A stretch of 64,000 bases of DNA, from contig JAFGWI010000033.1 in assembly GCA_016937215.1 (NCBI GenBank), forward strand, positions 1-64,000, written 5' to 3'. Source of the stretch: Spirochaetales bacterium. GTDB taxonomy: Bacteria > Spirochaetota > Spirochaetia > SZUA-6 > JAFGRV01. Position numbers and translations under genes: made by a program. The notes under the pieces are model-generated. The model was not told the origin of the DNA and ran no database searches. It saw only the letters and a program-made list of their open reading frames with translations. Below are positions 1-62,415 of the stretch, one piece after another. Each line of letters opens with the position of its first letter. Within the stretch, counting starts at the first letter, position 1.

Positions 1-109
1 AATATCCGGTAAAAAACGCTTTGGCCTGCAATTTTTGAAAAAATTGCAGGCCATGCCTCCTATCCCTAACGCATTTATAACCAAATTGTAAATTAGCTAA
101 ACAAGTACC
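1..109 (-). repeat. Family-1 structured MITE-like repeat, copy 1 (truncated by window start)
   Basis: Reads in reverse: TTGTTTAGCTAA...GCGTTAGGGATAGGAGGCATG + perfect hairpin GGCCTGCAATTTTT-GA-AAAAATTGCAGGCC (23-52) + AAAGCGTTTT; TIR GCTAAACAAGTACC at 96-109. Confidence 0.85.
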
Positions 110-7315: not shown

Positions 7316-7500
7316 TGATACTTGTTTAGCTAAATCAAAATTTAGATATAAATGCCTTAGGGATAAGAGTGCATGGCAATCAATTTTATCAAAAATTAAT
7401 TGTCAAAGTGTTTTTATTGGATAATTTTAAGTAAAAACATTTCAGAGCGACAGCGAAGTGCCATATATCCCAGACTACAACAGACAGGCAATGCCCCAAA
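7316..7500 (+). repeat. Family-1 structured repeat, copy 2
   Basis: ACTTGTTTAGCTAAATC...CCTTAGGGATAAGAGTGCATG + hairpin GGCAATCAATTTT/AAAATTAATTGTC (7375-7404) + AAAGTGTTTT...GGATAATTTT...GAGCGACAGCGAAGTG...CAGGCAATGCCC. Confidence 0.85.
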
Positions 7501-16302: not shown

Positions 16303-16599
16303 TGTACTAGTTTAACTAAATGGGGGCCTTTGTTTTAAACACGCATTAGGGATAGAAGGCATGACTGGCTTGCTATTTTTTAAGAAATAGCAAGCCAAAG
16401 CGTTTTCTGCCGAATAATTTCCGATAGAAAACCTTCATAGTAACAGCGAAGTTAGGATTCAGACTTATAGTGAATGCCAATGAGCATCCACCCCATCGAG
16501 CAATAAATGCGGAGCATTTATGACCAGAGGCTGGATAAACCGGCCTGCCATGCCTCTGGGTAGCAAGTAAGGCCTGGAGTATTCTGCTTAACAAATACA
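16303..16599 (+). repeat. Family-1 structured repeat, copy 5, full length with TIRs
   Basis: TIR TGTACTAGTTTAAC (16303-16316) / GCTTAACAAATACA (16586-16599); flanks ATAAAT/ATAATT; hairpin GGCTTGCTATTT...AAATAGCAAGCC 16367-16396; GCATTAGGGATAGAAGGCATG. Confidence 0.88.
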
Positions 16600-18172: not shown

Positions 18173-18282
18173 TTTTATTTTTTATAAATCTGAATCCATT
18201 TTAAGAATTTTATATAGAGAATAGTACCACTTCAAAATAGAAATAACCATAATACGAAAGTATGATTTTGCTGTTATCCATA

Positions 18283-18545
18283 TGTATTTGTTTAGCAATG
18301 GCTTATTTGGGCGTTTCCCCATTCCGCTTTTTTATGAGCGGTTTATCATTTGAGTACAAAGGAACAAACCCTGCCTGGCTTCATGGGGTCGGGCTTTTCG
18401 CTTCAACTCCTCGCAGAACCTGTATCCGCTGCTGTAATTGTCCAAAGAAATGGCAAATGATTAAAATACAACGGTCTGCTGCGGGGTTTTCGCTGCAATC
18501 CCTAACGCGGTAAAAGCTGAAAAATGAATTAGCTAAACAAATACA
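18283..18545 (-). repeat. Family-1 MITE-like repeat, copy 6, with TIRs and 6-bp target-site duplication
   Basis: TGTATTTGTTTAGC (18283-18296) and GCTAAACAAATACA (18532-18545), perfect 14-bp TIRs; flanked by TCCATA (18277-18282) and TCCATA (18546-18551). Confidence 0.92.
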
Positions 18546-18972
18546 TCCATATTATCATTGTCTTGATTTTACGTAATATCATAGTTTAATCATGCAAAAT
18601 CATTAGATCGAAAGCCCTTATACAAATATTATAGCCAACCTTAATGAATAAAAAAACAAAGCCTTTTTCTTTATCTTTTGGAAAAGTAAAAATATAGCTT
18701 CCTTTAAAATAAATGTCTAAAACCTCAAAGAAATTGAACTAATCCCATAAAACAAAGAAACATCTCGCATTCAGCAATGAATTAAGGTAATATTAATATT
18801 ATTTAGACTTAAAGAATTGTGATTTTAGTACAAAAAGCAGAATAATTGCAGCTCGTTAAAAAAAATATATAGGGTGCCTCAGCCCCACAAAATGCGAATT
18901 ATGTGTTGATGTGAATAATAGAAAACACTCATTTCTGAATTTATAGTTTTATAATAAATAGACAATCAGATT

Positions 18973-19837: not shown

Positions 19838-19907
19838 TATTAATAAATAAGAATTAATTATAGGCAAACAAAATTAGTTTAGCAAGAAAAATAATGCTTC
19901 AGAACAA

Positions 19908-20032
19908 AGCTAATCGCAAAAGTCCTGACATTAACAAATAGCCTCAAAGATATAACTATTTATCCAGTAAAAAAATAATTTATCCGAAATCCTTAAAACT
20001 TTTACAAAACCTCAGTTTTGTAAAAGCCTCTT
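19908..20032 (+). repeat. Family-2 structured repeat, copy c
   Basis: AGCTAATCGCAAAAGTCCTGACATTA...TAGC ... 11-bp perfect hairpin CTTTTACAAAA-CCTCAG-TTTTGTAAAAG (19999-20026). Confidence 0.72.
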
Positions 20033-20222
20033 AACTCTAAATAATATAACAAATTCCCTAAATTCACTGCAAAATATGGGCAAGATTGTTTAAAAACAAT
20101 ATAAATTATATCAATCTATGGTTCTAATACCCCCCACAAAAAAGCACAATTAACTTAGCTTTAAATCTCAGATTACTTATTAATTCAAAAAGCAATCTTA
20201 ATTTTATTCCATCATTCAATTA

Positions 20223-35782: not shown

Positions 35783-36163
35783 TGTATTTGTTTAGCAGAA
35801 ATTTTCAGGGCATTGCCTGATATATCCAGGGGCTTTCAGGCCAGGCTTTACTCGACTTTGTTTTGCTCCCAAAGCCCCAGGCCGCAAAGCTTGTTGCGTA
35901 ACCTCGAGATACGAAACTATTGTGCTATACCTGGAGGGCCCATGCGTATATACCCCCCTATATAGTGTCACAATAGTTAACCTATCGGTCGCGTAACCAT
36001 TTTGGCATGGGCAAGCAATCAATATCAAGCGTTTATGACCAGCAGCGCCTGCCGGCTTAAACAGATTTAGGATTTCAGAAAGCCATTTTCAAAAAAATGG
36101 CTTTCTGCCGCTCCAATCCCCAAGGCTTGTCCTTGCAATTGAGCATATAGCTAAACAAGTACT
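35783..36163 (-). repeat. Family-1 MITE-like repeat, copy 9, full length, with nested insert
   Basis: TIRs TGTATTTGTTTAGC (35783-35796) / GCTAAACAAGTACT (36150-36163); hairpin CAGAAAGCCATTTT/AAAATGGCTTTCTG (36076-36107); CTTGGGGATTGGAGCGG; CCTGA..TCAGGCAATGCCC. Confidence 0.9.
35893..35998. repeat. 84-bp inverted-repeat insert (35904-35987) flanked by 11-bp direct repeats, nested in copy 9
   Basis: GTTGCGTAACC (35893-35903) ... GTCGCGTAACC (35988-35998); internal TIR-like GATACGAAACTATTGTG / CACAATAGTTAACCTATC. Confidence 0.7.
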
Positions 36164-47041: not shown

Positions 47042-47225
47042 AGTATTTATTCAGCTTTTTTGGGCGTTACCCTATTCCGCTCCGCTCCAAAGGGCCCGGG
47101 CTTTGCGCTGCTCCGCTGTCGCTCCGAAATCCTCGCCTGCCAAATAGGCAGGCTGCGGGTTTCATAAAAGCTTTTTTGAAAAAAAGCTTTTATGCCGCTC
47201 CAATCCCTAACGCGTTACGCAAGGC
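47042..47225 (-). repeat. Family-1 structured repeat, copy 11
   Basis: Reverse: CGCGTTAGGGATTGGAGCGG + 15-bp hairpin CATAAAAGCTTTTTT-GA-AAAAAAGCTTTTATG (47163-47194); GCCTGCC TATTT GGCAGGC; GGAGCGACAGCGGAGCAGCGCAAAGCCCGGGCCC...GGGTAACGCCC; TIR-like AGTATTTATTCAGC. Confidence 0.9.
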
Positions 47226-62190: not shown

Positions 62191-62212
62191 TTCTTTAAGG
62201 TATTAAAAAAAA

Positions 62213-62415
62213 ATAACTTGTTCAGTTAAATCGATTTCCCGCTCTTAGCGCGTTAGGGATTGGAGCCATGTTCAGTCATTTTTTTAAAAATGACTGAACA
62301 AAGCGTTTTTGGGCGGATAATTTCCGCCCGAAAACCTTCAAAGTGGCGCAAAGCCCGGCCTGCTGAAATGTAATGAAAGCAGGCAACGCCCGAAAAATCA
62401 GACCAAACAAATAGA
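62213..62415 (+). repeat. Family-1 structured repeat, copy 14, near full length
   Basis: ACTTGTTCAGTTAAATC...TTAGCGCGTTAGGGATTGGAGCCATG + 15-bp hairpin TGTTCAGTCATTTTT/AAAAATGACTGAACA (62269-62300) + AAAGCGTTTTT + GGGCGGATAATTTCCGCCC (62311-62329) + CCTGCT..AGCAGGCAACGCCC + CCAAACAAATAGA. Confidence 0.92.

Follow-up and report, generated by a model that had tools for sequence, protein, structure and literature searches.

Evidence for a MITE carrying a Flavo-1-like structured core in a Spirochaetales bacterium

The window analysed here, a stretch of 64,000 nucleotides from a Spirochaetales bacterium, contains a 261-bp repeat at positions 18284–18544 (forward strand). The question is whether this repeat is mobile DNA, a structured RNA, or both. 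An earlier note, made from the letters alone, described it as a copy with perfect 14-bp terminal inverted repeats (TIRs) and a 6-bp target duplication (TSD). The letters it quoted are exactly those found at this place, and both features are present, but their lengths had to be revised. As defined from the letters and from full-length relatives elsewhere in the genome, the element reads ATCCATAT, GTATTTGTTTAGC ... GCTAAACAAATAC, ATCCATAT. The left TIR GTATTTGTTTAGC (18284–18296, forward strand) and its perfect inverted copy on the right (18532–18544, reverse strand) are 13 bp long and have no mismatch, and they are enclosed by the left and right copies of an 8-bp target duplication (18276–18283 and 18545–18552, without strand). 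The outer T and A that had been counted as TIR are part of this duplication.

The parse of 13 plus 8 is preferred over 14 plus 6 because the identity of the flanks exceeds that of cross-paired flanks at a length of 8 bp alone. Flank lengths from 3 to 12 bp were tried on 41 full-length TIR pairs (up to 700 bp apart and with no more than three mismatches in total) from 1.56 Mb of the own genome. The left and right 8-bp flanks have an identity of 0.634, compared with 0.397 when cross-paired (z 7.7), while 6-bp flanks do not rise above the control. This signal was already visible in an earlier set of 26 pairs. Exact 8-bp duplications number 8 in the same 41 pairs, with 0.08 expected, so duplications in other copies, whose absence had been named as refuting transposition, do exist. 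Examples are CATTTTTT (L002 = L084), AATAATTT (L079), GAAGTATT and AAATTGTT (both L090), GAATAGCT (L130), GGCTTTTT (L152), GATTTTAT (L214) and ATTTTTCT (L246).

The window holds several other copies. The second complete one (16304–16598, reverse strand) had been described as having the same geometry with one mismatch in 6-bp flanks; the geometry and the single mismatch stand, while the flanks are 8 bp long, AATAAATT/AATAATTT, and agree at seven of eight positions. In the third complete copy (35784–36162, forward strand) both TIRs are intact and the duplication has decayed to five of eight. Three copies are older: the one at 7318–7500 (reverse strand, far limit approximate) keeps the right TIR ATACTTGTTTAGC and has a degenerate left end, the one at 47043–47213 (forward strand) keeps the left TIR GTATTTATTCAGC and the core and has lost the right TIR, and the one at 62212–62408 (reverse strand, limits approximate) has degenerate TIRs and intact hairpins. 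None of the copies in the window contains an ORF of at least 100 aa, and TIR-bounded copies in the own genome are 188–439 bp long. Finally, positions 1–109 (forward strand) are the right end of a copy truncated by the contig start, with its TIR at 97–109. Of 220 TIRs, 65 are no more than 400 bp away from the end of the stretch analysed and point off it, which is expected because repeats break assembly; the first base of the window is also that of its contig and falls in one such copy.

When the genome (5.09 Mb, 335 contigs) was searched with the element, seven full-length relatives (L002–L008) were found at 98, 95, 90, 86, 87, 87 and 86% identity. In all of them the homology stops at the TIRs, and the flanks beyond differ and are unrelated. 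The copy number in the genome is a couple of hundred; the counts given here rest on 1.1–1.56 Mb of own-genome sequence and on genome-wide pattern counts. The TIR pattern, with at most one mismatch, occurs 405 times genome-wide and the reversed control 38 times, an excess of about tenfold. None of 60 relatives has a comparable excess over the control, and the expansion is therefore lineage-specific. No copies were found in plasmid or phage records, and the pattern of TIR plus core was absent from viral contigs.

Insertion can also be seen directly. Relatives provided no intergenic alignment, as the available genomes are distant (about 67–75% DNA identity in genes), and a scan of GTDB contigs for relatives gave one distant protein relative. 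Empty sites, the lack of which was the other condition named as refuting transposition, exist, however, within the genome itself, and these are direct evidence of insertion. The L006 element, 87% identical to the copy at 18284–18544, has inserted into a different interspersed repeat, of which uninterrupted copies lie in L173, L236, L119, L115, L232 and L144; when its flanks are joined, they restore the empty site and leave a single additional 9-nt direct repeat (AAAATAATT/CAAATAATT). The L148 element sits in the same interspersed repeat, with a decayed duplication. A further copy, L090:16396–16601 (TSD GAAGTATT), has inserted into the interior of a second element of its own kind. This host is uninterrupted in the window (16467–16546), L222, L210 and L219, and once one GAAGTATT is taken out, the two flanks can be joined to give a gapless alignment with it. 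The interspersed repeat that serves as target for two of the MITEs is about 120 bp long (GCTCTTTCAAAACTGAGGTTTTGAAAGAAT...), is unrelated to them and is found in the window at 19900–20035 and in L173, L236, L119, L115, L232, L144 and L213.

The TIRs, the 8-bp duplications, the dispersed, near-identical and sharp-ended copies, the empty sites and the nesting all agree with the earlier reading as non-autonomous mobile DNA. We suggest, with high confidence, that the element is a MITE with 13-bp TIRs and an 8-bp TSD, mobilised by a trans-supplied transposase of the DDE type and carrying a structured cargo related to Flavo-1. In the proposed mechanism the transposase, whose DDE class is our inference, would be supplied in trans, bind the 13-bp TIRs and move the element, leaving the 8-bp target duplication behind. 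A/T-rich intergenic DNA would be favoured as a target, and the copies are indeed intergenic. The cargo would be the multi-hairpin core related to Flavo-1, which may benefit the element or may be tolerated as harmless between genes.

The earlier note had proposed looking for a transposase gene bounded by the same TIRs. None was found in 1.56 Mb (31%) of this fragmented assembly, in contigs of at least about 2.6 kb. No contig in this sample was shorter than 2.6 kb, so short interior contigs, perhaps with an autonomous copy among them, may be missing from the assembly. A search of the whole assembly covered four transposase domains (IS1595, IS6-type, IS66 and DDE_Tnp_1), and the IS1595 and IS6-type DDE domains gave no match in it. 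IS66 is represented by a single C-terminal fragment on the edge of a contig (L093, the first bases of contig C119), with no GTATTTGTTTAGC end nearby, and DDE_Tnp_1 has one copy in the whole assembly, with IS ends that differ from the TIR of the element.

Y1 (RAYT-like) transposase genes do exist in the genome, but there are only two, at L246:1471–1950 and in L247. The former is close to NCBIfam REP_Tyr_transpos, and an element (L246:2124–2336) lies about 170 bp downstream of it. It could thus be speculated that the element is REP/REPIN-like and mobilised by RAYT, the Y1 tyrosine transposase, through its hairpins, with no duplication left; the richness in hairpins, the intergenic location and the high copy number would all fit. 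Y1 transposition leaves no TSD. The TIR-bearing copies, however, have precise TIRs and an 8-bp TSD, and so has the very copy beside the L246 gene, where the duplication is exact (ATTTTTCT/ATTTTTCT). Insertion without a TSD, by which REP/RAYT systems are recognised, is thus not what these copies display, and we regard this origin as very unlikely for them. For the TIR-less cores alone, described below, mobilisation by RAYT is a possible reading. High-copy intergenic palindromes and RAYT-like genes are shared with the REP/REPIN systems (PMC3116915, PMC3733652), from which the element differs by its TIRs and 8-bp TSD.

The interior of the MITE contains a structured core at 18383–18516 (reverse strand) that matches the Rfam family Flavo-1 (RF01705) over the full length of the model, positions 1–76 of 76. 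The match scores 32.5 bits, with an E-value of 3.6e-5 on 441 nt and of 0.0053 over the 64-kb window and all families. We call the core Flavo-1-like because the score is below the gathering threshold of 42 bits, which L002, L003 and L006 (31.5–32.6 bits) also miss. The order GGGATTG-AGCG-AAA...TTGAAGCG-AAAGCCC and the paired strands are the same in both; the differences are the lower score and that the core lies here inside an element with TIRs and TSD, whereas Flavo-1 is catalogued as an sRNA. The own genome has 14 Flavo-1 matches at E ≤1e-3, and another genome of the same class, G072, has 42. In the 1.56 Mb of sequence, 143 of 152 TIRs with at most one mismatch (about 94%) are followed by the same core, which carries GGGCGTTnCC towards one end and GCGTTAGGGAT towards the other, the latter located exactly 23 nt inside the TIR in 67 of 77 cases. 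An inner inverted repeat (ACAATTCCAAATATAAAC...) splits the first hairpin of some copies, as in L073:15771–16209 and around 19.7 kb from the reverse end of L074, and resembles a nested mini-element.

A common structure of nine similar-sized elements has 60 pairs, with 97.8% of the cells paired, and 26 of the 60 pairs have changed on both sides. None of 500 shuffles reached any of five structure measures; as these nine sequences also served to derive the structure, a slid control leans in its favour, which the shuffles do not. The helix formed by the TIRs has no double change while the inner hairpins have many, i.e., the TIR is conserved in sequence and the interior in pairing. The earlier note had set mobile DNA against structured UTRs. 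Mobility stands, but this opposition was too sharp, as the stems of the interior covary and its structure is related to Flavo-1. One might go further and regard the repeat as a chromosomal family of structured RNAs or UTRs that spread by recombination or selection without transposition. The strong covariation, the Rfam similarity and the roughly one half of cores that lack a TIR could be read in this way. The TSDs, sharp ends, empty sites and nesting could not, and double changes confined to the inner helices and never seen in the TIR helix fit recognition of the TIR by a protein rather than pairing. We therefore give this explanation almost no weight, even less than mobilisation by RAYT.

Not every core belongs to a recognisable MITE. 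Of 161 cores, 84 (about half) have no good TIR nearby, i.e., at least four mismatches and close to the control distribution, and neither inverted nor direct repeats at their borders exceed the cross-paired control. The core density in the sample extrapolates to about 620 for the whole genome. ORFs of at least 150 aa make up 77% of the sequence, yet they contain only 11 of 188 cores. The TIR-less cores have a mean folding energy of -18.9, compared with -10.4 for shuffled sequences, and it is equally low in TIR-bearing copies. Their arms have an identity of 0.30 between copies and a self-complementarity of 0.65, against 0.28 across copies. Either the structure was retained after mobility was lost, or another process spreads and repairs the palindromes. 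TIR-less hypervariable palindromes of the Flavo-1 type with a constant loop of a T-run and an A-run are found for example in L074, L076, L084, L091 and L131.

These near-random yet self-complementary arms, together with folding energies as low as in the TIR-bearing copies, are what quasipalindrome correction would produce: template switching would maintain the complementarity of the arms even if neither an RNA nor a DNA structure were under selection. This explanation bears on the interior and not on the mobility of the element. Correction alone does not explain why the motifs adjacent to the stems are conserved across genomes, as captured in the Flavo-1 model, and we consider it possible but rather doubtful.

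Flavo-1 cores inside mobile DNA are also found in G072, where six matches above the gathering score (50.8–55.3 bits) are each enclosed by a short element with TIRs. Two kinds of these elements occur. The first has a GAGCCTGTTYAAAATC-like TIR and 3-bp duplications (TTA, TGA, TAA and TAA, exact in four of four), the second the TIR GAGCYGGTTCCAAAAT and 4-bp duplications (GAGT and AGAT). One G072 contig starts within the terminal part of a transposase gene of the IS5 family (NF033580, E 8.8e-15, a partial sequence below the whole-protein cut-off of the model). Directly behind its stop codon follows GAGCCTGTTCAGAATCTTCTC (reverse strand), a near-match to the MITE end GAGCCTGTTCAAAATCTCCTT. The end of the IS5-family gene thus matches the MITE end, and therefore at least one Flavo-1 MITE has a recognisable autonomous partner. 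A core of this kind in a MITE whose end matches that of an IS5-family transposase gene is an example of mobilisation in trans and supports the mechanism proposed above.

The G072 elements resemble the one described here in having a Flavo-1 core (51–55 bits there) between TIRs and a TSD. They differ in their ends: one kind has GAGCCTGTTYAAAATC, a 3-bp TNA duplication and a partner of the IS5 family, the other has GAGCYGGTTCCAAAAT and a 4-bp TSD, and both TIRs are unrelated to GTATTTGTTTAGC. The two genomes thus suggest separate captures of Flavo-1 by unrelated MITEs. We are inclined to see Flavo-1 as, in part, a structural module that mobile DNA carries: no fewer than three unrelated MITE chassis would have acquired it (one with a 13-bp TIR and an 8-bp TSD here; in G072, one of the IS5 type with a 3-bp TSD and another with a 4-bp TSD), and several hundred TIR-less cores would persist with stems that are randomised but still complementary.

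Prokaryotic MITEs with RNA structure are known, such as ERIC, NEMIS/Correia and RUP (reviewed in PMC2229807, PMC10969869). Like these, the element is short, non-coding, intergenic, TIR-bounded and TSD-making, with the potential for RNA stem-loops and a dependence on a transposase in trans; it differs in its 13-bp TIR GTATTTGTTTAGC, the 8-bp TSD and the Flavo-1-like core, a combination for which a limited search of open-access papers gave no example. The MITE itself is of a known kind; what is surprising is that a catalogued RNA family is linked to more than one MITE chassis. In 2010 Flavo-1 was described from Bacteroidetes as a probable RNA without a cis-regulatory role (Weinberg 2010, PMC2864571). 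RNA-seq of F. psychrophilum found that its matches lie "indistinctly" in sense or antisense orientation relative to transcripts and gave no hint of a function (PMC9723704). No link between Flavo-1 and transposons was found in a limited search of open-access text. Flavo-1 may in part be cargo of mobile DNA, and residence in transposons would explain both its scatter and its missing orientation. It would also make testable the question whether the core is cargo that aids MITE survival near genes or a hitch-hiker, and caution is advised, as covariation alone can mark mobile DNA as an RNA family. The 65 viral contigs with the Flavo-1 sequence pattern yielded only one flanking inverted repeat of at least 11 bp, which we take as chance. 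In another genome, G069, three Flavo-1 copies above the gathering score (L157, L171 and L176; 45.0–48.4 bits) have a right flank of about 50 bp in common.
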